Origin: Polyangiaceae bacterium | GTDB lineage: Bacteria; Myxococcota_A; Polyangia; Polyangiales; Polyangiaceae | NCBI GenBank assembly: GCA_019637295.1 | Contig: JAHBVX010000002.1 | Span: 496,001-560,000 of the forward strand | Length of the DNA: 64,000 nt | Reading direction: 5' to 3' | Shown: one piece after another, positions 32,594 to 46,423 of the stretch | Position numbering within the stretch: position 1 is the stretch's first letter | Layout: each line of letters starts with the position of its first letter | The notes under the pieces: model-generated | What the model saw: only the letters and a program-made list of their open reading frames with translations | The model's database searches: none | Told to the model about the DNA's origin: nothing | Program-made: the position numbers and the translations under genes

Positions 32594-34011
32594 ACGTCGC
32601 GCTCTCGTTCCTGCTGCCCCTGGTGATTGGCTACGTGCTGGTCCATCATGCGCTCGGTCGCAGCGGAGGTTGGCACTCCTCGTTGGGAAAGCTGCCGCTC
32701 GCCTTGGGGCTGGGCCTGGGGCTGACCGGAGCCTGTGCCTTCATCTCCCTGGCGTTGGTGGATCACATCAGCGTCGGCTTCGAGTGCGCGCTGCTCATCG
32801 GGGTCTTGTGGTGCTTCGGGCGCCGGCCTCCGCCCCCGGTTCTCAGCGCCGATTCGGAGCGCTGGACGCCGGCGTCCCGCGTGCTCGTGGTGCCGCTCGG
32901 GCTGCTGCTGGTCGCGTCCGGTATCGCGTTCTTCATTCAGTCGGGGCAGCTGAATCACGGCGGCTGGGACGCGTGGGACTTTTGGAACATGCGCGCGCGC
33001 TTCTTCGCGCGCGGGGGGGAACACTGGAACAACACGTTCTCGCAGATCCCCTGGTGGACACACCCGGAGTATCCGGTGCTTCTGCCGGCGATGGTCGCTC
33101 GCGGCTTCGTGTGGGTCGGACGAGAGCTCGTCGGAGTGCCGCGCGCCCTGGCTTGGGTGTACACCGTCGGCTCGGTGGCCTTGCTCTACTTCGGGGTCAG
33201 CCTGACTCGCGGACGAACGCAGGGCTTGCTCGCCGCCACGGTGCTCGCAGTCACGCCCTACTTCTTGCACCACGGTGCGGAGCAATACGCAGACAACCCG
33301 CTGGGCTTCTACTTCCTCGCGACCCTGGTGTGCCTCGGCCTCTACGACCGTGACGGGCGCCGCTCGCTCCTCGTGCTCGCCGGAGCGTTCGCGGGCTTGG
33401 CCGCGTTCACCAAGCACGAGGGCCTCATGTTCGTCACCTGCCTGGCGCTCGCGCGCAGTGTGGTGGTCTTGCGCGCGCAGGGGCGCTCCGAGTGGCGAAG
33501 GCAGGCGTCCGCTTTCTTGCTCGGGGCGTCGCCGCTGTTGGCGCTGCTCACGCTCTTCAAGCTGCGCTACGCGGTCATGCCGGACAACGCCGAGTTCTAC
33601 GCTGCCCGCTGGCAGCACTGGGATCACAGCTTCACCGACCACGTGCTGATGAACCTGCGGAGCGGCGAACGCTACGTTGGTTTCTTCGAGTCGTGGTGGC
33701 ACAACCTCACGCACTTCGACGAGTGGCTCTTGCCGCTGGTCTTCGTACTCTCGGTCTACGCCATCGTCCAAGGCGTCTCGGCTCTGCGACCTCGCACCAC
33801 GTTGCGAACGCTGGCCGTGACGCTTGCGCTGCACTTCCTCGGAGCTTCGGCCGTTTTCCTGCTCTGGTCGACCTACGACATCCGCGAGCACATGGACGCG
33901 ACGGGGCGCTTGCTGGCGCAGGTGCTGCCGGTCAGCCTGTACGGCGTGTTTCTGACCGTGAACACGCCCTTCACCGTCGCCTCGCAGGGCGAGCCGGAGG
34001 CGGCTCGTTGA
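32590..34011 (+). CDS. polytopic membrane glycosyltransferase (GT39/ArnT-like)
   Basis: 473-aa protein with about 10-11 membrane segments. The first large loop holds GGWDAWDFWNMRARFFARGG and PEYPVLLPAMVARGF, the acidic-residue pattern of GT-C enzymes that take a sugar from a lipid-phosphate donor and add it outside the membrane. Acceptor and donor are unknown. It overlaps the genes on both sides and is the second gene of the surface-sugar operon that continues, beyond the inserted DNA, at 45302. Confidence 0.7.
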   Translation: MNVALSFLLPLVIGYVLVHHALGRSGGWHSSLGKLPLALGLGLGLTGACAFISLALVDHISVGFECALLIGVLWCFGRRPPPPVLSADSERWTPASRVLVVPLGLLLVASGIAFFIQSGQLNHGGWDAWDFWNMRARFFARGGEHWNNTFSQIPWWTHPEYPVLLPAMVARGFVWVGRELVGVPRALAWVYTVGSVALLYFGVSLTRGRTQGLLAATVLAVTPYFLHHGAEQYADNPLGFYFLATLVCLGLYDRDGRRSLLVLAGAFAGLAAFTKHEGLMFVTCLALARSVVVLRAQGRSEWRRQASAFLLGASPLLALLTLFKLRYAVMPDNAEFYAARWQHWDHSFTDHVLMNLRSGERYVGFFESWWHNLTHFDEWLLPLVFVLSVYAIVQGVSALRPRTTLRTLAVTLALHFLGASAVFLLWSTYDIREHMDATGRLLAQVLPVSLYGVFLTVNTPFTVASQGEPEAAR

Positions 34012-35171
34012 GTGCCGACATCGAGATCGACTACGAGGCAGCGCTCCGCGAGCACACGTCGCGCTTGGGCACGGAGCTGCGAGGGCTCTGCGGGATCTCG
34101 GGTCTGCACACGTGGGTGCCGGCGGAGGACGTGGTGCGAGGCCTGCACGAGTTGCTCGAAGCCGCGACGCTCGAGGGCGCGCGCAGCGTGGCCGTGCGCT
34201 TGCCGGCGGCTCGCGCGGCGAAGTTGTCAGACGCCCAGTGGTGCGCGCTCGGTGCCGAGTTCGGAGCCGCTACCTTCACCCGGGGCGCCAAGTCCTCGCT
34301 GCTCCGGGTCGAACTCGAGAGCCAGCGAGGGGCGTGCGTCAGTACGCTCGCCGACCCTCCGCGCGAGCGGGCGCGGCGCGCGTTCTTCGCACCGCGCCGC
34401 CTGCGCGCCCCGCTGCGCTTGCCGCTGTGCTTCGCGACGCGGGTACGGCAAGCGGCAGGTCGACCAAGGCGTCACGCCCTGGAGCTGCCCTGCGGCGCCG
34501 GTGCCATCGTTCGGAGTGAGGTGGCCGGCTGGGTGCTGGTCGGGCGCGTGGTCGACGGGATCGCCGTCCTGCTGACGCACTCGGGCGCCGCCGACGAGGT
34601 CGAGCTCGGGGTGCTGGAGCTCGCGTGCGGCGTCGGGGAGGGACGGCCGGTCTCGGATCTCGCTGACCACGGCGCCATCGCCACTCTGGACGCAGCACGC
34701 GAGCCGCTGGCCGCCCGCCCGGAGTTCGGCGTCCCCCAGCCGAGCAACGAAGGCGAGCTGTTCGCCCGACTCGAGCGGCTGTTTCGGGCCTTCGACGCTG
34801 CGTGTCAGGAGACCGTCGACCCGGCGGCACACGACCGCTGGGAGCCCAGCCCGAGGCCCGAGTGGCTCGCCCTCCCGCCTGACGCGCGCTTGGCGCGGCT
34901 GCGCGCGGCGCTGCAGGTGGCGTGCCGGCGCGTTGGGCTCGACGAACACGCGGCTACGGTCGTGGAGCTGCGCGGCCCGTCACGGCTGCTCGTGGACGTC
35001 GATCCCCGGCTGCCTGCCACGAGGCGACGCGAAGCGCTGCTGGCCCTCGAGTACGAGCTCGCGGACGAAGTCGAGCCGACACTGTCGCTCGAGCGGCGGG
35101 CGCGCACGGACAAGAGCTCGATCCGGCGCTTGACGCTGTCATCCGCGGACGACGACGCCGAATCGGAGTAG
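34008..35171 (+). CDS. hypothetical protein of surface-sugar operon
   Basis: 387-aa soluble protein, not recognised. It opens with a TTG whose bases overlap the previous stop (TTGA); no ATG lies in frame nearby. Visible: an acidic N-terminus (SADIEIDYEAALREH), an Arg-rich middle (PRERARRAFFAPRRLRAPLR), and an acidic Ser/Asp/Glu end (SSADDDAESE). It is followed by the radical SAM reading frame 16 bp later. The last 53 codons are repeated almost identically at 45125-45285. Its conservation in a tight operon suggests a role with the radical SAM protein or glycosyltransferases. Confidence 0.6.
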   Translation: MSADIEIDYEAALREHTSRLGTELRGLCGISGLHTWVPAEDVVRGLHELLEAATLEGARSVAVRLPAARAAKLSDAQWCALGAEFGAATFTRGAKSSLLRVELESQRGACVSTLADPPRERARRAFFAPRRLRAPLRLPLCFATRVRQAAGRPRRHALELPCGAGAIVRSEVAGWVLVGRVVDGIAVLLTHSGAADEVELGVLELACGVGEGRPVSDLADHGAIATLDAAREPLAARPEFGVPQPSNEGELFARLERLFRAFDAACQETVDPAAHDRWEPSPRPEWLALPPDARLARLRAALQVACRRVGLDEHAATVVELRGPSRLLVDVDPRLPATRRREALLALEYELADEVEPTLSLERRARTDKSSIRRLTLSSADDDAESE

Positions 35172-35540
35172 CATTCAGGGATCGTCCATGAGCGCCATGC
35201 AGCCACACGCGGAGCTCATCTTGGACGGCACCAAGCTCGGCTGGCACCTGGAGCGGGTACGAGCTTGGGAGCGAGGCGAGCGGGTCGCACCCATCACCGT
35301 CGACATGGCGCTCACCCGAGCGTGCAACTACGCGTGCCACTTCTGCTACGCGATGCTGCAGGAGAACGAGCGCCATCCGATGACCGGACCGGTCGTCGAA
35401 GCCTTCCTCACCGACGCCGCGGCCATCGGGGTGCGCGGAGTCAGCCTCGTGTCCGACGGCGAGAGCACCCTCTCGCCCGTGTTCGTCGACGCGGTCGTGC
35501 GTGGTTCCGAGCTGGGTCTGAGCATGGCGTGCGGCACCAA
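35011..35540 (+). repeat. 530-bp direct repeat, left copy
   Basis: Matches 45125-45654 without indels; I count 11 mismatches (about 98% identity). It covers the last 53 codons of the 387-aa gene, the 16-bp gap and the first 117 codons of the radical SAM gene. The match breaks off abruptly at 35540, inside a codon. Recombination between the copies would remove 10,114 bp and rejoin the operon. Confidence 0.95.
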
Positions 35541-35613
35541 GGTCCAGGAGTTCGAGGAGTTCTTGCGCTGCGGGCGGCCCGAGCACGGCTGTCTTCACCT
35601 GGTGTGCCGTGAC

Positions 35614-35654
35614 CCCCAGCACCACCACATCCGTGAGGTCGTATCCGGTTCTCG
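35614..35654 (+). repeat. 41-bp direct repeat, left copy
   Basis: Matches 44804-44844 at 39 of 41 positions, in the same orientation. It lies 73 bp inside the left 530-bp repeat; its partner lies 280 bp before the right one. It probably marks the ends of the inserted DNA or of an IS-derived segment within it. Confidence 0.75.
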
Positions 35655-35781
35655 CAGCGCGGCCACGATCGTAGAGTTCCTCCCGGGTCCAGCCCCGGTC
35701 CCCGGTCGAGCCGGCGACAGGCGCGCGACGCTCGTCGTGGCCGGCATCCGACCGGCGCCGTGCGTCGACGAGAGCGGGCGC

Positions 35782-36003
35782 GACTACAGCCCCAGGGTGG
35801 GCTTGCGACACGCGCGCGAGGTCGAGCTCGCGCTTCGCGCGCCAGCAGAGAGAGCGGTCCACCTCTCCCATGAACGCGCTCACCACCTCGGCGCAGAGCT
35901 TCCGGTCGTAGCCCAGGAGCGCGCGAAGGCCCCAGGGCAGAGAGCAGATCCAGTGCCGGATGGGCACGCGCGGCGTTCGCGTCGAACGCGCTCGCCGCAC
36001 TCG
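35782..36003 (-). mobile_element. IS91-type transposase remnant
   Basis: The minus-strand translation contains RVPIRHWICSLPWGLRALLGY, DRKLCAEVVSAFM and VSQAHPGAVV in one frame, the hallmark order of the IS91/ISCR rolling-circle transposase (RQWVLSFPWxLR..., then HPGAV). Neither the zinc-binding start nor the Tyr-containing catalytic part is intact; about 75 codons remain. The rest of 35541-36038 holds no supportable gene. Confidence 0.65.
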
Positions 36004-36047
36004 AATGGTCTGAGGGGCGTGGCCCAGGAAGGAGGGGGATGATGAAA

Positions 36048-36067
36048 CGGACGCACGGACGCACGGA
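36048..36067 (+). repeat. 8-bp tandem repeat in signal-peptide region
   Basis: CGGACGCA occurs twice in tandem (36048-36055, 36056-36063), then CGGA. With both units, the ATG at 36039/36042 (strong AAGGAGGGGG site) reads to a stop at 36114-36116. Deleting one 8-bp unit puts that ATG in frame with the protease and yields a good lipoprotein signal peptide ending STSVAC. Confidence 0.85.
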
Positions 36068-36112
36068 TTCTGGAGCCGCTCTGCGGCCCTTTGGTTCGCG
36101 GCGCTCGGAGCG

Positions 36113-39100
36113 GTGAGTACGTCGGTTGCTTGTGACAGCGACGACGGCTCGGGTGAGGTCGTCGCACAATCCGCCGAAGAAGTGGGCGGCGGTCTCTTGG
36201 ACACTTCCGACCTCTTCCCGGCGGTGGTCGCGATTGCTCCGGCGGGCGGCGGCATCGAGTCGCGGTTCTGCAGCGGCACGTTGGTGACCCCGAACCGAGT
36301 CGTATCAGCAGCCCATTGCTTTACGCCGAACAGCGTGCTCGGGGCGCTAGACGTCTTGGTAGTGACCCACCCTGGCGGCGTAAAGACGGCCACTCGCTAT
36401 ACGCATCGACCCTCGTTCGCCGGAGGCGTTCAGACAAACGCGATCCGAACATTTGCGACCCCGGGACCCACGGGCGGGGATTCCAACGGTGATATTGCAG
36501 TCATCACGCTCGACAGTCCGGTGCCAGATGTCACGCCGATGGTGGTTGCGACCCCGGATGACCCGTGTCCGCGCACCACGGAGTTCATCGGTAACCTCGT
36601 CGGGTTCGGGCTCACTGGAGCGGCGCCCCCTTCCTGCGGCCTGGTGAACGCTGACGACCGAAGCTGGGCGACCAGCACAGAGTGGGAGTACGACGACCCT
36701 GGGGTGTACTCGAACAACTGGACCTTCACGTCCTACCAGGGCGGCCTTGTGGGTGATTCGGGTGGTGCGCTGCTGCATGGGTCGCGGCTGTGCGGGGTGC
36801 ACTCTCGGCACTCGGGTGTGACCTGCGCCGGACCGCTAGGCGCGATCGACGCGAACTCGTACGCCGCCGCCATAGACGACTGGGACTTGACCGCGACGAC
36901 GAATGTCCCGCTCACGGAGCTAGAGTCCGTCGTCTCCTATGTCGATCCGCGAACGGGCGAGGCTGCATCCGTGGGCAAGTGTCCCCCGAGCTACCTCGCG
37001 CTTCCTGGCGCGAACGCGGCGCTTGGCGTCACCGACTCGGACAGCGACGGCATCCCCGATCTGTGCGACAGCTGTCCGTACAAGCCGAACTTCGGCCAGA
37101 TCCACGCGGTCGAACCGGATCTGGACGGCGATGGCATCCCCGACAAGTGCGACAACTGCCGTCGCGTGGCCAATCGTGCTCCGGCTGGAGTAGCCCAGGA
37201 GTTCGCGCGCCTGTTCCCGGAGCCCGACAGCGACGGCGACGGCATCGGGGACATGTGCGACTGGTGCACGAGCCCCGATCCGCGCGACCACGTGTTCGAG
37301 CAGGAACTCGCGAACTGCAACATCGAGTCGGAGCTCGCATTCCACTACCCGGGGCTGGCCGCGCCCCCAATAGTGACGCTCGGCCCCAACTACAGCGCGG
37401 ACCTGGCCAAGTACCGAGCTGCGTTCAAGCTCGGAACGTGCGATCTGGCGCCCTGCCCTACCATGACGCTGGGCTTCGATGCACCCTTCCCACCCGGAAT
37501 GGAACCGCAAGCCCCGTGCCAACTGCAGGTCCCGCTGCCCCGCACTTGTGGGTGGGCCCTGCGCAACAGCCTGGTTCACCGCCCCAAACCTTCGCCCGAG
37601 ACGGTGGGCGAGGTCGGACGCGTGCACGCGAAGTGGTGTGAGTGCCCGTTCGATGTCTCGACGGTCAACGGAAGGGTCATGTGCCAGGCGGACCCGTACT
37701 TCTGCCGGGGCGTGCAAACTCAGTTCGAATTCGAACAGTGGCGGGAGCTCGAGACGGCTCGCGTCTCCGGGCCGCTGGTGGACTGGAGCCAGGCCGGACC
37801 CGAAACCTACAGCTACCCGATGGTCGACGCGGTCCAGGTGCACAGCGCCTGGAACTTCTTCGCGCTCGGCACGCCGTACTTGAAGCACAAACCGACCGGA
37901 GGCCCGTTCCTCCCCGGGGTTCACAACCCCGAGGACGCTTCGGTCCACGGCATGCTGTGGAACGCCGTGCGCGAGATGGAGAAGTTCGCGCCGGGCAGTC
38001 CCCAGCACGCGGAGATCCAGGAGCGCGGTAACCACTACGAGCGTGGCGACGCGTCGTACGAGATCCACGCCAAGGTGTTCATTACCGCGCCCGTGAACAC
38101 CTCGCTCGACCTGCACTACCCCTGCAAAGACTGCCCGTTCCTGTCGCTCACCAATTTGATGATCGATCCGACGCTGGTCAGTCCGACCCTCGACGTGCTG
38201 CCGGTGTTGGTGAGTCCAACACGCACGCTCGTCAGTCCGGAGCTGCTCACGACCGCGGCGCGCGAGGACCTCTTGGCATCGCAGCGCGGCGAGCTGCGCA
38301 TCGTGACCAGCGTGGAGAGCCCCGGGCTGCTGGCGGAGCTCACCGGCGCTGGCGCGCTGCTTCGCGGTATCGTGCTCAGGCCGACCAACGGCGCGCCGGT
38401 CCGTGTCCTTGCGCAGACGTCGCTCAACGGCCTGCTCGGATCGGTGCCGCTGGTCCGGGACGACCGGATCGATCTGGCGCAGTCGGCGGACCCCACGGAG
38501 GTGGGTCTGGCCAGTCTGACGCTGGCCGAGCCCGAGAGCGATCAGGAGGCACCCGGCGCTTTCGCGGAGGGTGAGGCGTTGGTGTTCAGCGCCGAGCATG
38601 GCCTCTTGTATCGCTTTGGTGGCAAGCACCCGAGCGTCGCCGCGACCGCATGGATCTACGAGGTCGCGAACGGTCGCTGGACGTCCGTAGGCCTCGACGG
38701 CCAGCATCGCCCGGGCAGCGTGAGAGCCGGGACGTTCCAGCGCGCGGATGGCTACGTGTATGCGCTCGACGCACCCCCGACGGGCCCGGGTGGCCCGGTG
38801 CAGCTTCGCCGTTGGCGGCCCGGCACGCGACAGTTCGAGTCAGTGGTGCGTTGGACTGGCGCGATGAAGAACTTCAATCGCTACTGGGTCGTGCCCTCCG
38901 ATGGCGGGGACGTATACGTGGTCGCGTCCAAGCCCGGCTCGTCGGCCATCCAGCGCTTCGAGCGCTTGCCGAGCGGAGCGCTGAACTTCGTGGGTGTCCA
39001 CTTGCTGGCGGCCGAGATCCTCGAACGACCGTTCACCACCAACGGGACGATCGGCTTCGTGGTTCACGCTCCGGTGAGCGGCGCAATCGAGCCGTTCTCG

Positions 39101-39172
39101 GGCGTGCGGCTGGACCACGTCGCCGTCAGCGGCATCCGCGCCAAACCCAAGGGCTTCGTGCCCTCGAAGTGA
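36113..39172 (+). CDS. secreted trypsin-like protease with TSP3 repeats (signal out of frame)
   Basis: The open frame starts at GTG 36113 (1019 aa), but the signal peptide is encoded just before it with no start codon in frame; see the 8-bp repeat. Trypsin-like domain about 15-260: SAAHC (His), NGDIAVITL (Asp), GDSGGALL (Ser), all intact. Next come calcium-binding thrombospondin type-3 repeats (about 300-390: DSDSDGIPDLCDSC, DLDGDGIPDKCDNC, DSDGDGIGDMCDWC), a Cys-bearing middle region, and a kelch-like C-terminal half (LYRFGGKHP). It lies within the inserted DNA and its stop overlaps the next lipoprotein gene. It could be silenced by the frameshift as sequenced. Confidence 0.8.
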   Translation: MSTSVACDSDDGSGEVVAQSAEEVGGGLLDTSDLFPAVVAIAPAGGGIESRFCSGTLVTPNRVVSAAHCFTPNSVLGALDVLVVTHPGGVKTATRYTHRPSFAGGVQTNAIRTFATPGPTGGDSNGDIAVITLDSPVPDVTPMVVATPDDPCPRTTEFIGNLVGFGLTGAAPPSCGLVNADDRSWATSTEWEYDDPGVYSNNWTFTSYQGGLVGDSGGALLHGSRLCGVHSRHSGVTCAGPLGAIDANSYAAAIDDWDLTATTNVPLTELESVVSYVDPRTGEAASVGKCPPSYLALPGANAALGVTDSDSDGIPDLCDSCPYKPNFGQIHAVEPDLDGDGIPDKCDNCRRVANRAPAGVAQEFARLFPEPDSDGDGIGDMCDWCTSPDPRDHVFEQELANCNIESELAFHYPGLAAPPIVTLGPNYSADLAKYRAAFKLGTCDLAPCPTMTLGFDAPFPPGMEPQAPCQLQVPLPRTCGWALRNSLVHRPKPSPETVGEVGRVHAKWCECPFDVSTVNGRVMCQADPYFCRGVQTQFEFEQWRELETARVSGPLVDWSQAGPETYSYPMVDAVQVHSAWNFFALGTPYLKHKPTGGPFLPGVHNPEDASVHGMLWNAVREMEKFAPGSPQHAEIQERGNHYERGDASYEIHAKVFITAPVNTSLDLHYPCKDCPFLSLTNLMIDPTLVSPTLDVLPVLVSPTRTLVSPELLTTAAREDLLASQRGELRIVTSVESPGLLAELTGAGALLRGIVLRPTNGAPVRVLAQTSLNGLLGSVPLVRDDRIDLAQSADPTEVGLASLTLAEPESDQEAPGAFAEGEALVFSAEHGLLYRFGGKHPSVAATAWIYEVANGRWTSVGLDGQHRPGSVRAGTFQRADGYVYALDAPPTGPGGPVQLRRWRPGTRQFESVVRWTGAMKNFNRYWVVPSDGGDVYVVASKPGSSAIQRFERLPSGALNFVGVHLLAAEILERPFTTNGTIGFVVHAPVSGAIEPFSGVRLDHVAVSGIRAKPKGFVPSK

Positions 39173-40572
39173 GAAGGCTCGTGCTGGTTCGACGTTCGCT
39201 CCTCGCAGTCTTCGCCTCCGGGTGGTGTGCGTCGCTCCTGCCTGTCGGCTGCGACAAGTCCAGCGAGCCCTCGGCGAGCGCGGACGCGGGGGGCGATGCG
39301 GCGGGTGCGGGCTCGGGGGCGACAGGCGGTTGGGGTGCTGCCCCGAGCGGGGGCGCGCCGCCCACCGGCGGCATCGGCGGTTCAGGCGGCGCGACGCCGG
39401 ACGCGGGCATGTGGCAGCCCGCGGGAGATCCGGGCTGGCATACCCCCGCGTGGGCCTGCGGAGGCATCTCCGTCGCGACGAACCCGGTCCACGGGGCGCC
39501 GCCTCTCGAGTGGGAGCCCTGCGGTTCGGGGCTGCCAGGCTGCCTGCGGCTGCTCGTCCCGTGGCAAGCGAGCATTCAGCGCATTCAGCAGGCTCGGGTG
39601 GGGCGCACGTCGCCCACCACCATCGTGACCTTGTCGTTCTCGCGCGACACGGAGCACTTCGACACGGAGCACTTCAAGGCCGTCTACGAGGATGGCGCAC
39701 CGAAGGTCGTGTGGCGCTACCAGCCGGGACTCGCGCCCGAGGGGTGCTCGATGACGACCCCCGAATGGACGCCCAACCACTTGTGCGTTTCCACGACCGA
39801 GGTCTTCGATGGCGCCGTCACAGTGGGCCGACAGTTTCTGCTGCCCCCCACATCGAGCGGTCCGCCCCTGGCGAGTTGGACCTCCACCGCGACGTTCCCG
39901 AGCGGCTGCAGCACCGAGCTTCTGGGCGCCGATGACTCCGCAGGTTCAGGGTGGGTCCGCGATCTGGTCTCGGGCAACGAGTACCCACTCGAAGCTTCGC
40001 CCGGCATCGCGTGGCCTCCCGTCATCCACGAGGACATCGCGCTCTTCCGACGCTGGTGGGGCGACGGCACGTACATTCGCCTGGACGCGTGGCTCTGGAA
40101 GCGGCCCAACGCGACGGCGCCGCTGGTCGAGGCGCCCGACGGCGAGATGGTCTACGACGTGCAGACCGACGGCGCCACGCTGGTGTGGGTTCAGACCAAG
40201 TCCGAGTCGGTGCTGGATCGAGCCCCCGGCGAGCTGTGGACCAGCCCGTTCAGCAAGACCTCCAGCGCACTTCAGCCCTCCAAGCGTCGGACGACCCCCG
40301 CCATCTCCGTAGCCCTGTCGATGAAGCGCGTGGGCAGCGGCTACTACGCGCTGATCGAGCAACCTCTGCCGGCGGGCAACGAGAACTGGAAGCTGCACGT
40401 GTACCGGCTGTCGGACGCGCGCCACTGGCAGGTGGCATTGCCCGGCGCGCTCCGCCCCGTCGAGGTCGTCCACGTCGACGCGGAGGAGGTCTGGGTGCGG
40501 GCGCACACGATGAAGGTCGCCGACATGACGCTCATTCGCCGGCGCATCGACCAGCTCGGGCCGGGGGATTGA
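39169..40572 (+). CDS. hypothetical lipoprotein
   Basis: 467-aa lipoprotein with GTG start overlapping the protease stop (GTGA). Signal peptide RRSLLAVFASGWCASLLPVGC with lipobox LPVGC, then a low-complexity Ala/Gly/Ser linker (ASADAGGDAAGAGSG, GGIGGSGGATPDAG) typical of myxobacterial lipoproteins. The mature domain is beta-rich, possibly a propeller (GEMVYDVQTDGATLVWVQTK), unrecognised. Coupling suggests it acts together with the protease. A longer open frame from 38650 is readthrough of the protease gene. Confidence 0.65.
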   Translation: MRRLVLVRRSLLAVFASGWCASLLPVGCDKSSEPSASADAGGDAAGAGSGATGGWGAAPSGGAPPTGGIGGSGGATPDAGMWQPAGDPGWHTPAWACGGISVATNPVHGAPPLEWEPCGSGLPGCLRLLVPWQASIQRIQQARVGRTSPTTIVTLSFSRDTEHFDTEHFKAVYEDGAPKVVWRYQPGLAPEGCSMTTPEWTPNHLCVSTTEVFDGAVTVGRQFLLPPTSSGPPLASWTSTATFPSGCSTELLGADDSAGSGWVRDLVSGNEYPLEASPGIAWPPVIHEDIALFRRWWGDGTYIRLDAWLWKRPNATAPLVEAPDGEMVYDVQTDGATLVWVQTKSESVLDRAPGELWTSPFSKTSSALQPSKRRTTPAISVALSMKRVGSGYYALIEQPLPAGNENWKLHVYRLSDARHWQVALPGALRPVEVVHVDAEEVWVRAHTMKVADMTLIRRRIDQLGPGD

Positions 40573-40575
40573 GCC

Positions 40576-41301
40576 GTGAGCCGCGCGCGTCTCGATTCGC
40601 GCCTTCCCGCCGCGCTCATCTTGCTCGGCGTGCTCGCTACACCACGCGCTGCGAGCGCTCAGGCCTGTGATGGCGCCGACCCTGCGTGCCGGTCCTTCCC
40701 GGCGCCCACGGCTCCAAGCGGTCCACCGGCGGCGCCGACGCCCCCCGCCGCGGAGCCCACCGGGCCGCTGCCGCAGCCACACTCCGCTCCGCCGTACCCC
40801 GCGTACGCACCGCAGCCCCTGGGCACAGCGCTAGCGCCAATGCCAACGCCCGGCTGCCCGGCGGACGAAGCGCCGTCGGCGTGGAGCATCACCGGTCTGG
40901 CGATGGGCTGGGGCGGCCTACCCTACGTCGGCGTCTCTGGGGAGTTGGGTTTCTCGCACTACGCCGGAGCGTCCCTCGTGCTGGGCACTTGGTACACGAC
41001 GGTGTCGTACGACAGCCTCCCGCCCATCATCGAGTCGGGGTACACACATCTCTTGGGCGCCAACGCGGCGGCGTATCCCTATGGCGGCCTCGAGGGGCTA
41101 CGCCTCGGATTCGAGGCGGCCTACGCGGTGACCACGAACGACCACCTGCATGGGCCTCGAGCTGAAGAGGACTCGCTTGGCGCAGGCTTCGTGATATTCA
41201 TTGGCCACAAGGTGATCCGCAAGAGTGGATTTACGTTCGTGACGGACCTGGGCATGGGGTCGCGGCTTCTACTTCGGCTCGGGATCGGGTGGTCGGGTTG
41301 A
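40576..41301 (+). CDS. exported beta-barrel-like protein
   Basis: 241 aa. A signal peptide ends near ASAQA, then a Pro/Ala-rich stretch (about 35-90), then beta-rich sequence with alternating residues and Gly/aromatic turns (GLPYVGVSGELGFSHYAGASLVLGTW...) ending LLLRLGIGWSG, which suggests a small outer-membrane barrel. No family recognised. GTG-adjacent start, ATG not available: the frame opens at GTG 40576, 4 bp after the lipoprotein stop, so the three cargo genes probably form an operon. Confidence 0.55.
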   Translation: MSRARLDSRLPAALILLGVLATPRAASAQACDGADPACRSFPAPTAPSGPPAAPTPPAAEPTGPLPQPHSAPPYPAYAPQPLGTALAPMPTPGCPADEAPSAWSITGLAMGWGGLPYVGVSGELGFSHYAGASLVLGTWYTTVSYDSLPPIIESGYTHLLGANAAAYPYGGLEGLRLGFEAAYAVTTNDHLHGPRAEEDSLGAGFVIFIGHKVIRKSGFTFVTDLGMGSRLLLRLGIGWSG

Positions 41302-41936
41302 GCGGGTCCCGCCGTGCCCGCGCCGGGAGGACACGAGGCTCACCCCGAGGTGCCAATTTGCAGACTCATGCAGCCACCTAACCGGTGATTCACCGTCGGA
41401 GGCAGGCTCAGCACTAGCGCACCGCCTCGAGCACTCGACGCAACGTCACCACCGAGACGTCGTCGCCGAACTCCACGCGGGCCTCGGCGACCTCGAGCAC
41501 GTATCGACCGCCGCCTGCCACATTGAGGGCACGCGGAGCGGGAACGTGCGCGCGAGCGCGGCCGCGGCAGGCGTGACGCGCCGCGGCGATCGCCGATCGC
41601 GGCGCTCCCCATCACGACTGCGTGCGTCCCCGCAGTCACCTGCCACACGAGAACGCGACCGATGTCCGCCGAGGCCCTCGTGCTAGGGGCCGTCCGCGTA
41701 GACGGAGTCGCGAAGTGCCTCGGCCAACGGGAGGAGCTCACCGAGCGTGCTCCTCCACTCCTCGAGCCCGATGATGATGTCGACCAGCTGGTTGAAGAGG
41801 GCGTCGTGCGTCTATGGGGGCGCCATGCGACCGCCTATCGATCTGCCGTTCAGCGGTGTGGTTTCGAGCGTAGGCGAGGACCACGGCCGCCTGCAACGGC
41901 GGGCTGACCGCGCCACCCTCTCGGTACGCCGGAGAC
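41302..41936. other. 635-bp decayed stretch without intact gene
   Basis: No complete gene is supported. On the minus strand at 41414-41530 one frame reads LNVAGGGRYVLEVAEARVEF and then VVTLRRVLEAVR before a stop, which resembles the end of an IS66 accessory (TnpA-like) protein; this is a weak guess. Open frames elsewhere have no recognisable content, and several short frames break within 100 bp. Confidence 0.4.
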
Positions 41937-42362
41937 ATGGTGGTCAGAAGTGCGTCGGGGCTGCGTGGACCGTGCCACCCAGATCTGACTCCGCCGGTGA
42001 TCGATACGGTCACCGCCACTCCTGCTTGCTTGTGGCCGCCGAACAACAAACTCGTGGCGCTCGGGCTTGGCAGTGGGCTGGTGGTCGAGTCCCATGACGC
42101 CTGTGACCCGGCGCCAACGGCTCGCATCATCGGGGTGAGCAGCAACCAAGCGCTCGGATCTGGCGACGCGACGTTCACCGATGACAGGGTGTGCCTGCGC
42201 GCGAGCCAGCTTGGTGCGCCTTCGGGGCGAACCTACACGGTCACCGTGGAAGTCCGGGACGCGGCGGGCAACGTCGCCCAGAAGACCGTGGACTTTCGCG
42301 TTCCTCGCAGCAAGGACCCTTCGTGCCCGACACTGCCGATCACCGCGTTCGGGTGTCCCTGA
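41937..42362 (+). pseudogene. fragment of a secreted HYR/Ig-like repeat protein
   Basis: 141-aa frame whose body contains the motif ACLWPPNNKLVAL, then ARIIGVSSNQ, and YTVTVEVRDAAGNVAQKTVDF, the signature of C-terminal HYR/Ig-like repeats in secreted bacterial proteins. There is no signal peptide and the first 20 residues look random, so it is probably the 3' remnant of a longer gene. It ends with a Cys-bearing tail (ITAFGCP). Confidence 0.55.
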
Positions 42363-42435
42363 GGATAAACTGGCCCAGTTGGATGCGAACGGCTCTGGCA
42401 ACCCGACGGTGCACTCTCGGTTGGCAACTACCGAG

Positions 42436-42666
42436 ATGTTCTCAAAACGGCAGCCTTGCCTGCACGGCGATGTCCCTGACGTGTATCGCTACGACGAAGT
42501 GCCCGACCAGCTCCGCGCGCACATCGTGCATATCCTCGGCGACATGCTGCACGGCGGGAGCTGCGCGACAATCGCGCATCGGAACGCTCGAGCAGATCGA
42601 ACGCCAATCGGGAGTCAGGCTGACCTGAATAGACAGGCAAAGCGGCGCCCCCAAGACCGCTTCTAA
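42436..42666 (+). pseudogene. AbiJ-like N-terminal fragment
   Basis: From ATG 42436: MFSKRQPCLHGDVPDVYRYD and LRAHIVHILGDMLHG resemble the start of AbiJ N-terminal-domain proteins (abortive-infection family: FSKRxG...P...YDExPxxLR.QI.HI...). After about 40 residues the resemblance stops and the frame ends at 42666, so the rest of the gene is lost. The assignment rests on the motif only. Confidence 0.4.
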
Positions 42667-42685
42667 GCCACGCAGTACATCGCAC

Positions 42686-42850
42686 ATGTCTCTCGTGAAG
42701 GCAGGTAGGTTCTTGGCAGAGTTTCCGGACTGCCCGAGATATCAGATGTTCGCAGAAGTTGGCGACGCGCTCATAGCTGCTGCACCGAAGCGCTCGAAGG
42801 GTGGCTCGAGGCGCACCTCGTCGATGGACAGATCCCGCCAATGTCCCGTC
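42686..42850 (+). pseudogene. HicB-type antitoxin remnant, frameshifted
   Basis: One frame gives RFLAEFPDCPRYQMFAEVGD followed by ALIAA; then, after a shift, the next frame gives TEALEGWLEAHLVDGQIPP. Joined, they match the HicB pattern (xFPDxPGCxTxGxxxEEA...ALEGWLEAxxxxGxxIPxP). The Cys-Pro-Gly turn has become CPRY, and no HicA toxin is seen on either side. A broken toxin-antitoxin locus is the best reading. The following ~110 bp (42870-42985) are GC-rich trinucleotide low-complexity DNA. Confidence 0.5.
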
Positions 42851-42979
42851 GATCACAAGCGTTGGCTCGCGGCCCGCGTTGTCGGCTGCGGCGGCGGCAA
42901 CGGCGGCGGCAGCGGAGAGCTGCAGCGGCTGCGGAGAGCGGCAGCGGCTGCGGCATCGGGGACGGCTGCGGCCCGCCGC

Positions 42980-43717
42980 TCAAAATGCCTTCGGCAGAAA
43001 GCCCGGTGAGTTCAGGACGTCCATCAGCTCGTCGCCGATGGCGAGGACGAGCAGGCCGCAGCGCTCCGCGAACGTGACTACGTCCGGCTCGACCGCGAGC
43101 GACGCCAGGCACCCGAACAACCGCCGGTCGGCGTACTCCGGAAAGAACTCGCGCAGCTCTGCCAAACCCTCCGCGAACGCGCTGACGTGGCGCGCGGTCA
43201 GCCGGCTGCGGGCTTCGCACGCGATCCAAGTCGACGGCGATGAGCAGAGCGCGTCGACCTCGCGCGTGCGACTGGGATCCGCCGGGTGGCGGCGCTTGAC
43301 GCGCAGGGCCGTCTCGATCGGGTAACCCTGGGGGAGTTGGAGATACGGCTCGGCGATGCGCGGCAGACTCGGGGCGACCAAGTCCTCCACCATGGTGCCG
43401 AGACGATTGGAGAGCTCGCCCCAACGCTTGTTCCAGTTGTGGCGGTCCTCGGCGGAGCGCTGTTCCCAGTCGCGGCGGTCGTCCAAGCGGGCGCGCTCGT
43501 TCCGCTCCCAAGACGCGGCCATCTCGTCCTTGAACAGGGCCATCTCGTCCTTGAACAGGGCCATCTCGTCCTTGAAGTCCGTCATCTCGCGCTTGAAGTC
43601 CGTCATCTCGCGGCTGAGGCGATCGAGGCTACGCGCGGCCGCGGCTTGTGCTACCGCTAGCTCCGCCATGGCGGCTTCGAGGGCGGTGGTTCGAGATTCG
43701 AGAACGGGGGTGGTCAT
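42980..43717 (-). CDS. coiled-coil / PD-(D/E)XK nuclease-like protein
   Basis: 245-aa protein. The N-terminal ~95 residues are a coiled coil with a repeated 7-residue unit (FKREMTD, FKDEMAL, FKDEMAL). The C-terminal half contains GYPIETALRVKRRHP, a REVDALC segment, then ACEARSRLTARHVSAFAEGLAEL and GCLASLAVEPDVVTFAERCGLLVLA, the layout of DUF3782/PD-(D/E)XK-like proteins (Asp in REVDAL, Glu in ACEARS, though the usual Lys is Arg). Nuclease activity is uncertain. ATG 43717 is chosen over TTG 43732. The family is common in bacteria with many multiplied copies. Confidence 0.6.
   Translation of the reverse strand: MTTPVLESRTTALEAAMAELAVAQAAAARSLDRLSREMTDFKREMTDFKDEMALFKDEMALFKDEMAASWERNERARLDDRRDWEQRSAEDRHNWNKRWGELSNRLGTMVEDLVAPSLPRIAEPYLQLPQGYPIETALRVKRRHPADPSRTREVDALCSSPSTWIACEARSRLTARHVSAFAEGLAELREFFPEYADRRLFGCLASLAVEPDVVTFAERCGLLVLAIGDELMDVLNSPGFLPKAF
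43521..43625 (-). repeat. 21-bp tandem repeat in coiled-coil coding region
   Basis: Five units of 21 bp start at 43521, 43542, 43563, 43584 and 43605. The first three are nearly identical (core CATCTCGTCCTTGAACAGGG); the last two differ more. Each unit encodes one heptad, so copy-number change would lengthen or shorten the coiled coil in steps of seven residues without shifting the frame. Confidence 0.9.
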
Positions 43718-44244
43718 GACGACACCGAACAACGCAAGAGTAGCACGCGGACTGGAACTGCACGGCGCGTGCCGCGACCTGGGGTCGACTCAGATGCGAT
43801 GAATCGCGAGAGAAATAGCCGTCCGCGCTGGTGGCGGACGCTGGCGGCTGGCGGCGGGCCGCCAGGTTGCCGTGCGGTGTGAGGCGCCAACGTTGCTGAG
43901 TTGCGGCGCATCGGGGCGCATCCGTGCCTACGTGGGGCTCGTGGGCTTCTGCCGGACGATGCAACTTCTGGCGGAGCGGCCGTGGCTTCGATCTCCCGGG
44001 GTGTCAGAAGGGCAGGCCGCGCGTGTGGGGGGAAGGATAGGGCGAGGCTTTGGGTCTGCGGGAGACAAAGCGTCGCTCGGATTCATGGTGCATGGGCATT
44101 CCGACGTCGACGTCGCAGGCGGTGCACTGCCGCGGGAACATCCCGAGTTGATGGGGGACCCACGACTGTACGTCGGGGCCGTCGACGATCGGCGACGACA
44201 TGCCGCCCGAGCTCGTCTTCGACGAGCCCGGCCTGGCCGCCTGT
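43718..44244. other. 527-bp stretch, no intact gene
   Basis: No supportable gene. The + strand carries an open frame from 43872 with ordinary shadow-like composition and no motif. It joins directly onto the IS91 remnant that follows, so it may include decayed 5' transposase sequence, but I see no zinc-binding motif. Confidence 0.4.
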
Positions 44245-44274
44245 TACGACCCTTGGAAGTCCCCGACGGGGGAC
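44245..44274 (+). repeat. 30-bp repeat with internal hairpin, copy 1
   Basis: Identical to 44475-44504. Begins TACGACCCTTGGAAG and ends in GTCCCC-GACG-GGGGAC, a 6-bp stem with a 4-nt loop. The two copies are 230 bp apart inside the IS91 remnant; the second sits exactly where about 100 codons of transposase are missing. Confidence 0.85.
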
Positions 44275-44289
44275 GCCGCTGCCGCGCAG

Positions 44290-44698
44290 GGCGTCGCGGT
44301 GAGTGGTGACCGGGCCGGCAGGCCGCCGCTCCGCCTCGTAGCGTCACTGGACCCACCCGCCCGCGCGCGCGCCGCCGACGCGACCGACGAGCCCATTGCC
44401 GAGGTGCGCGGCATCAACCTCCACGCCGCCCAGGTCGTGGACGGCCGGGACCACCGAAGAGTGGAGCGTCTCTGTACGACCCTTGGAAGTCCCCGACGGG
44501 GGACATCACGCGACCACCGAGAGCTGTCCCCGCTGCTCAGGGCCCATGCGCTGGGCGGAGGTCGCGACGAGCCGCGGCGCCATCACGCGCGTGCTCTCGG
44601 AGCACGGGCTCGGCCCCCGCGCGCCACCCGTCCCGCGCACGGCCGCTGCAGTGCCGCCCGAACAGCTGCAGTTGCCGTTCGGTGTGGTGAGCAGGTGA
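44290..44698 (+). mobile_element. IS91-type transposase C-terminal remnant
   Basis: Plus-strand pieces of an IS91-family transposase: PLRLVASLDPP, then EVRGINLHAAQVVDGRDHRR and VERLC at 44389-44475, then after a gap CPRCSGPMRWAEVATSRGAI (zinc-like CxxC), TRVLSEHGLG and the terminal LQLPF ending at 44698. The pieces lie in different frames and about 100 codons between them are lost. It points outward, toward the right 530-bp repeat, as the left remnant points toward the left repeat. Confidence 0.7.
44475..44504 (+). repeat. 30-bp repeat with internal hairpin, copy 2
   Basis: Second copy of the 44245-44274 sequence; the flanking bases differ except for one or two positions. It interrupts the transposase remnant between the VERLC and CPRC blocks. 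Confidence 0.85.
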
Positions 44699-45124
44699 GG
44701 TCAGCGCCCGAGCGACCTCGCCAAAGGCGAAGGTGCGCCTACCGAAGGTGCGCCTACCCACTCCCATTCGACCTCGTCTCCGCACCGGCCCGCGCGAACA
44801 CCACCCCAGCACCACCCCATCCGTGAGGTCGTGTCCGGTTCTCGACCCCAGCCCACTCCCGCCCCACGGTCCCGTACCCGAGAACTGGACAGGTTTTGGC
44901 AGTTCGATTTTCCTACGCGCCGCCGCCGCCGCCGCAGTCCGCGACGCCCGCATCGTCGAGAGCACACCACCCCGCCGTGTGGTACCCACAGACGCCCTCC
45001 GGGTGGTCCGGGGAGCGGCCCGTACAGGGGGTTGGCACGTCGCTGACGCAGGGATTGCACGGACCGCCACAGAGCGACGGAGGCGGTTGCGCGACGGGAC
45101 ACGACGCGAGGGTGGGCAGCGGCC
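44699..45124. other. 426-bp border region, no intact gene
   Basis: Contains the right copy of the 41-bp repeat (44804-44844) and otherwise no gene. A short tandem duplication, CGAAGGTGCGCCTACC, occurs twice at about 44728-44760. A CGCCGCCGC low-complexity run lies near 44919-44935. Confidence 0.55.
44804..44844 (+). repeat. 41-bp direct repeat, right copy
   Basis: Partner of 35614-35654 with two mismatches. It lies between the IS91 remnant and the right 530-bp repeat. Confidence 0.75.
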
Positions 45125-45654
45125 TGCCTGCCACGCGGCGACGCGAAGCGCTGCTGGCCCTCGAGTACGAGCTCGCGCACGAAGTCGAGCCGACACTGTC
45201 GCTCGAGCGGCGCGCGCGCACGGACAAGAGCTCGATCCGGCGCCTGGCGCTGTCATCCGCGGACGACGACGCCGAATCGGAGTAGCATTCAGGGATCGTC
45301 CATGAGCGCCATGCAGCCACACGCGGAGCTCATCTTGGACGGCACCAAGCTCGGCTGGCACCTGGAGCGGGTGCGAGCTTGGGAGCGAGGCGAGCGGGTG
45401 GCACCCATCACCGTCGACATGGCGCTCACCCGAGCGTGCAATTACGCGTGCCACTTCTGCTACGCGATGCTGCAGGAGAACGAGCGCCATCAGATGACCG
45501 GACCGGTCGTTGAAGCCTTCCTCACCGACGCCGCGGCCATCGGGGTGCGCGGAGTCAGCCTCGTGTCCGACGGCGAGAGCACCCTCTCGCCCGTTTTCGT
45601 CGACGCGGTCGTGCGTGGTTCCGAGCTGGGTCTGAGCATGGCGTGCGGCACCAA
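45125..45654 (+). repeat. 530-bp direct repeat, right copy
   Basis: Right partner of 35011-35540. It carries only the last 53 codons of the 387-aa gene, with no start of its own, then the complete beginning of the radical SAM gene, whose remaining sequence continues intact to 46423. Confidence 0.95.
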
Positions 45655-46423
45655 CGGTCTCGTGCTCACGCCGAGCAAGCTCGAGCGCGTGCTGCCACAC
45701 CTCACGTACCTGCGGGTCAACATCTCGGCCGGGGAGCCCGAGCGCTACGCCCAGATTATGGGCGTGAAAGCGGAGTGGTTCGAGCGCGTGTGCGACAACA
45801 TCCGGCACATGGTCCGCATCAAGCAGGAGCGGGGCCTCGGCGTCACCATCGGGCTGCAGATGGTGCTCATGCCGGACTACGCGGACCAAGTGCTGCCCCT
45901 CGCGCGGCTCGGCCAGCAGCTCAGGCCGGACTACTTGGTGATCAAGCACTGTAGCGACGACGAGGACGGGCGTCTGGGCGTGGACTATGGCGCCTACGAG
46001 AAGCTGAGTGGCTTGCTACGTCAGGCCGAGTCCTTGTCGGACGGCGAGTATCGAGTGATCGTGAAGTGGTCGAAGATCGAGGCGGGCACGCGGCGCAGCT
46101 ACCAGCGCTGTTATGGGCCGCCCTTCTTGCTACAGATCTCCGGTTCGGGGCTGGTCGCACCCTGCGGCATGTTGTTCAACGAGCGCTACGAGAAGCTCCA
46201 CATCGGCAACATCTGCGAGCAGCGCTTCGCGGAGATCTTCGCCAGCGAGCGCTACTGGCAGGTGATGCGCCACCTGGCGTCGTCTCGCTTCAACGCGCAG
46301 AAGATGTGCGGGAGCTTGTGCTTGCAGCACAAGGTGAACGAGGCGCTCGACGCACATCGCAAGGGGCGCCTGCCTCTGGCCGAGCCGGTGGGCCCCGCGC
46401 CGGCGCACCTGGACTTCGTATGA
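45302..46423 (+). CDS. radical SAM protein with SPASM-like C-terminus
   Basis: 373-aa radical SAM enzyme, splitting S-adenosylmethionine with a 4Fe-4S cluster to start radical chemistry. CxxxCxxC is CNYACHFC (46, 50, 53), followed by GVRGVSLVSDGESTL (SAM-binding GGE-like region, here SDGE). A C-terminal cysteine set (RCYGPPFLLQISGSGLVAPCGMLF, and CGSLCLQH) suggests an auxiliary SPASM-type cluster. Substrate unknown; the operon suggests a sugar or lipid-linked sugar. ATG 45302 has an AGGG site; ATG 45311 is possible. It was formerly, by inference, the neighbour of the 387-aa gene. Confidence 0.88.
   Translation: MSAMQPHAELILDGTKLGWHLERVRAWERGERVAPITVDMALTRACNYACHFCYAMLQENERHQMTGPVVEAFLTDAAAIGVRGVSLVSDGESTLSPVFVDAVVRGSELGLSMACGTNGLVLTPSKLERVLPHLTYLRVNISAGEPERYAQIMGVKAEWFERVCDNIRHMVRIKQERGLGVTIGLQMVLMPDYADQVLPLARLGQQLRPDYLVIKHCSDDEDGRLGVDYGAYEKLSGLLRQAESLSDGEYRVIVKWSKIEAGTRRSYQRCYGPPFLLQISGSGLVAPCGMLFNERYEKLHIGNICEQRFAEIFASERYWQVMRHLASSRFNAQKMCGSLCLQHKVNEALDAHRKGRLPLAEPVGPAPAHLDFV

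Follow-up and report, generated by a model that had tools for sequence, protein, structure and literature searches.

How did a set of genes spanning almost 10 kb come to lie inside a conserved surface-sugar operon, bracketed by two copies of the operon's own sequence? The locus belongs to an uncultured myxobacterial lineage and is found in a stretch of 64,000 nucleotides that was analyzed as a whole (the window, to which plain coordinates refer).

A Direct Repeat of Host Sequence Brackets the Insert

The first-pass annotation had described gapless direct repeats of 530 bp with about 11 mismatches, and pairwise comparison reproduced them exactly: Positions 35011-35540 and 45125-45654 (both on the forward strand) form a gapless 530-bp alignment with 11 mismatches, at a repeat-to-repeat spacing of 10,114 bp, again as first given. 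Its account of the gene content also held. The left copy comprises the tail of a 387-aa gene, itself complete (34008..35171, forward strand, TTG start at 34008), a 16-bp spacer, and codons 1 to 117-118 of a radical SAM gene, which then continues into transposase debris that happens to be in frame; this fusion forms a 284-aa open reading frame at 35188-36042. The right copy holds the last 52 codons of the 387-aa gene, after which the full radical SAM/SPASM gene follows (45302..46423, forward strand; 373 aa; Pfam PF04055 and PF13186).

Both edges of the repeat are sharp, with identity directly beyond either of them at chance level. When gaps are allowed, the alignment extends by no more than 4 bp past either repeat end, in each case behind a 1-nt indel and thus with an offset of 1 nt: by CGGC on the left (joint at 45124/45125) and by GGTC on the right (joint at 35540/35541). 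In DNA of 69% GC, such 4-bp microhomologies are not significant. A search of the whole assembly (7.65 Mb in 25 contigs, 98.5% complete) recovered these two copies and no third. Self-comparison of the 1.11-Mb contig, for direct repeats of 150 bp or more lying within 60 kb of each other, yielded five direct alignments in all, two of which are parts of a single IS91-like pair, and among the direct pairs in this contig the 530-bp pair is the only one that duplicates identified host genes.

These figures bear on the possibility that sequences of two strains or loci were fused in this contig within the common 530-bp stretch. The assembly is in 25 contigs, and 2% divergence would be typical of a strain mixture. 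Against this, the copies differ by substitutions that are mostly synonymous, with no indels, the insert lies within a 1.11-Mb contig that has few comparable pairs, and each junction of repeat and insert must still exist on some molecule, so that we consider an assembly fault or strain mixture unlikely.

The Interrupted Junction Is Continuous in Relatives

An uninterrupted operon in relatives had been proposed as support for an insertion, and the comparison came out in that sense. The source organism groups with Myxococcota, and G001 (CALMUT010000068), the sole same-genus genome among the relatives compared, has identical genes in identical order without a break: an NPCBM gene, a 219-aa gene, a mannosyltransferase-like 498-aa gene, the 387-aa gene, the radical SAM gene, a glycosyltransferase, an HldE-like gene, and further genes. 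Among 80 loci taken from named genomes of many phyla, at least 27 (a tally that includes G001) have a 387-aa homologue whose end lies no more than 200 bp before the radical SAM gene, and none carries the cargo in the stretch compared. Host genes on both flanks of the insert are complete relative to G001, and none is missing. Because the uninterrupted pair is present in at least 27 of the 80 loci, G001 among them, the continuous junction is old and the insert derived; sequence comparison thus supports the view that the segment 35541-45124 (9,584 bp) was placed into a once-continuous conserved sugar operon.

The two genes that are parted here constitute an uncharacterized conserved pair, found at those 27 or more loci in several phyla. 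The 387-aa protein has no match in Pfam or NCBIfam; its gene immediately precedes the radical SAM gene, a conserved position, and its homologues adjoin radical SAM genes across many phyla. The radical SAM gene, with orthologues in many phyla (54-78%), is the first gene of the downstream heptose-type operon, which the insert now severs from its upstream genes. A promoter scan saw no sigma-70-like promoter directly before this downstream operon, a weak negative in this bacterial group, and an Rfam scan returned nothing. In separating so widely conserved a pair, the insert provides a natural test of whether the two genes need to be cotranscribed.

Genes Carried by the Insert

Three intact genes share the strand of the operon: a secreted trypsin-like protease of 1019 aa with thrombospondin type 3 repeats (36113..39172, forward strand; Pfam PF00089, 8e-12, and PF02412, 3.5e-11), a putative lipoprotein of 463 aa that is a conserved neighbor of the protease (39181..40572, forward strand), and a putative envelope protein of 241 aa, an intact open reading frame without a family match (40576..41301, forward strand). 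The protease and lipoprotein genes form a genuine cassette: They stand side by side in four relatives, and a fifth has a weak partial match. Its distribution is patchy: Within the family, the protease is found in 7 of 108 genomes at E ≤ 1e-20, the source genome included, the closest other relative has 39% identity, and the same-genus G001 lacks the protease–lipoprotein pair.

The remainder of the insert includes gene debris. A 141-aa remnant (41937..42362, forward strand; weak Pfam Big_13 and Big_3_3) is like the C-terminus of an FG-GAP/Ig-like surface protein and, by eye, resembles the end of a surface-protein open reading frame at locus L077 of the relative G014. A coiled-coil protein of 250 aa is encoded on the opposite strand (42980..43732, reverse); its gene has internal 21-bp repeats in frame and an 87% paralogue elsewhere on the same contig, and further copies at 72-73% stand in a row at C2:169-172 kb. 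At the right end lies a fragment of a gene apparently for a secreted protein (44937..45124, reverse strand; a 71-aa open frame with a weak 38% relative in G014), truncated at one edge by the end of an insertion sequence and at the other by the repeat.

Searches of the rest of the genome, of relatives, and of plasmids did not recover the full insert. A plasmid origin was dismissed, as a search with the insert DNA found no similar plasmid. Neither does the segment qualify as a site-specific island or prophage: Searches against Pfam, NCBIfam, and PHROGs found no integrase, phage, or conjugation gene among its intact open reading frames, and the window contains no tRNA. The insert is not a recognizable mobile element, and it is not a new kind of element.

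IS91/ISCR-like Remnants Lie Close to Both Ends

Near the left end, codons about 51-74 of an IS91/ISCR-like transposase (35542..35613, forward strand) are followed by 41 nt from the 3' noncoding region of the element (35614..35654, forward strand; second copy at 44804-44844) and by codons about 91-191 of this transposase in inverted orientation (35737..36039, reverse strand). Near the right end, a longer remnant (44188..44936, forward strand) holds transposase codons about 249-362 and 457-513 and then the conserved 3' end TTTTGGCAGTTC...CCTACG. Relatives with long open frames occur in G014, where they encode a protein of 515-560 aa with Zn_Tnp_IS91 and Y2_Tnp domains; the nearest NCBI model is ISCR clade Ia, at a score far under its cut-off. 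Only fragments of a Y2 transposase are present in the window and the genome, with 21 genome-wide matches of which the longest covers residues 166-515.

Such remnants near both insert ends would fit a rolling-circle transposition of ISCR type that collected the cargo together with part of the operon, the resulting circle then integrating by homology. The position of the element does not agree with this. Its 3' end, the point from which such transfer starts, is at about 44936, 188 bp inside the insert boundary at 45124, with a fragment of a foreign gene behind it; the remnant near the left end has been scrambled and inverted, and the genome has no full-length transposase. Since this unrelated 188-bp fragment separates the 3' end from the repeat, the outer ends of the insert are random relative to the element. 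Insertion driven by ISCR was rejected, the element being broken and its end misplaced, and we hold the fuller version with a homologous last step to be very unlikely. With the 3' end lying inside the right end of the insert, the remnants are probably old debris that was carried along and did not drive integration.

Several further observations concern the same family. The right transposase remnant contains two copies of a 30-nt unit, TACGACCCTTGGAAGTCCCCGACGGGGGAC (44245-44274 and 44475-44504); at L077 of G014, the corresponding positions of a long open transposase frame carry this unit in frame (YDPWKSPTGD), and another G014 copy (L078) is without it. Among 39 genomes, the unit is confined to the source genome and G014. 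It was discarded as a candidate short mobile unit, the motif being restricted to IS91-like copies of these two genomes and one further place. Two IS91-like copies in direct orientation, 96-98% alike, enclose a further insert of roughly 10 kb on the same contig (G000:C12:198476-210041), and their spacing of 10.5 kb is near that of the 530-bp pair. A 200-bp direct repeat of 100% identity, its copies 2.4 kb apart (G000:C12:193392-193591 and 195836-196035), lies near the IS91-like cluster.

The Repeat Copies May Have Diverged before They Were Joined

Eight of the 11 differences between the repeats are synonymous and three nonsynonymous. Random mutation in these codons would be expected to give a synonymous share of about 26-30%, and the probability of at least eight in 11 is 0.001-0.004; the likelihood ratio, about 4-13, favors divergence with both copies functional over decay of one copy after duplication. 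The mismatches are evenly distributed along the 530 bp (KS p 0.56), and for this reason no crossover point is visible and a local crossover or conversion track among them was discounted. For two of the three amino-acid differences, the change may lie on the side of the truncated copy, a pattern that would also fit decay after duplication, although the sites are very few: P64 in the left, truncated radical SAM copy, against Q in the same-genus relative, and H353 in the right, truncated 387-aa copy, against the acidic residue E in that relative. Divergence of the copies before they were joined is moderately favored by the sequence pattern. The first-pass annotation had taken the 2% divergence to indicate either DNA from a relative or an event that was not very recent; a donor about 2% apart gains moderate support from the 8:3 pattern, and the residue changes in the truncated copies tell against it.

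An alternative on which these counts bear is break repair in place, with the insert captured at a staggered double-strand break or through a template switch during replication. If the switch re-entered the operon 530 bp upstream of its exit, these 530 bp would be copied twice and the 2% would arise later. Such repair could proceed without a donor that already held an operon fragment; the genome encodes Ku, both joints show 4-bp microhomologies with 1-nt indels, and some of the amino-acid changes appear to be located in the truncated copies. The synonymous excess, however, moderately disfavors it, two 530-bp copies separated by 10 kb would probably recombine or become homogenized within the time that 2% divergence takes, and a source copy of the insert was not found in the genome. 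We rate break repair as rather unlikely.

A Single Crossover as the Probable Origin of the Locus

Given that direct repeats of host sequence flank a unique insert with no host loss, we favor, with modest confidence, the entry of a circularized fragment of foreign or strain-variable DNA, likely from a strain diverged by about 2%, through one crossover in the 530-bp homology. The incoming molecule would have been a fragment of a related strain that held the insert beside a piece of the operon; its broken ends would have been joined into a circle, leaving 4-bp microhomologies at the joint, and the circle would then have integrated by one crossover within the shared 530 bp. This would leave the host genes intact on the outer flanks and the 530 bp duplicated at the insert ends. 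Support comes from the occurrence of the repeat in two copies only and from the ancestral junction; in addition, the nearest relative lacks the insert, which is present once in this genome and has its ends in unrelated gene fragments. The genome encodes both Ku and ComEC, which would make end joining and DNA uptake possible. Integration of this kind needs a hypothetical donor with an operon fragment between unrelated sequences.

The first-pass annotation had offered two readings, entry by a single crossover of DNA that already contained this junction and a tandem duplication with later cargo. Of the two, the crossover stands as the best fit, in agreement with the empty junctions in relatives, and the tandem duplication was set aside, as the assembly contains no second copy of the insert and no larger duplicated segment.

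The same recombination could in principle delete the insert again and restore the operon. That the repeats act as a switch, by which some cells lose the protease cassette and rejoin the surface-sugar operon with both types kept in the population, seems to us scarcely credible. The locus is a derived insertion with a textbook single-crossover footprint, a case of ordinary genome evolution. Its value is as a clear natural example, in an uncultured myxobacterial lineage, of a few hundred shared bases admitting a 10-kb gene set into an operon with no loss of host genes.

Comparison with Known Systems

The remnants resemble IS91/ISCR elements in matching intact relatives with a Y2 transposase and zinc-binding domains and in sharing the conserved 3' end, whereas here only scrambled pieces are present: There is no complete Y2 transposase, and the insert ends do not coincide with the element's ends, its 3' end included. 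The integrase, phage, or conjugation genes of an integrative element or prophage are likewise lacking among the intact open reading frames of the insert. With homology-facilitated illegitimate recombination, the locus has in common a one-sided homology and illegitimate joints with microhomology of a few base pairs; the usual product of that process loses host DNA, whereas here host DNA was duplicated and none was lost, the flanking genes being complete relative to G001. The closest likeness is to Campbell-type, or insertion-duplication, integration, in which the shared homology reappears as a direct repeat on either side of the insert. Host repeats are found at both ends of the insert, and relatives carry a single uninterrupted copy; what sets this locus apart is that the event is natural, with a putative donor, that the copies differ by 2%, and that the cargo includes gene debris. 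In Escherichia coli, linear DNA that circularizes after some loss of end sequence and integrates by a single crossover produces duplications of 109-950 bp (PMC3240628), a range within which the 530 bp of the present repeat falls.
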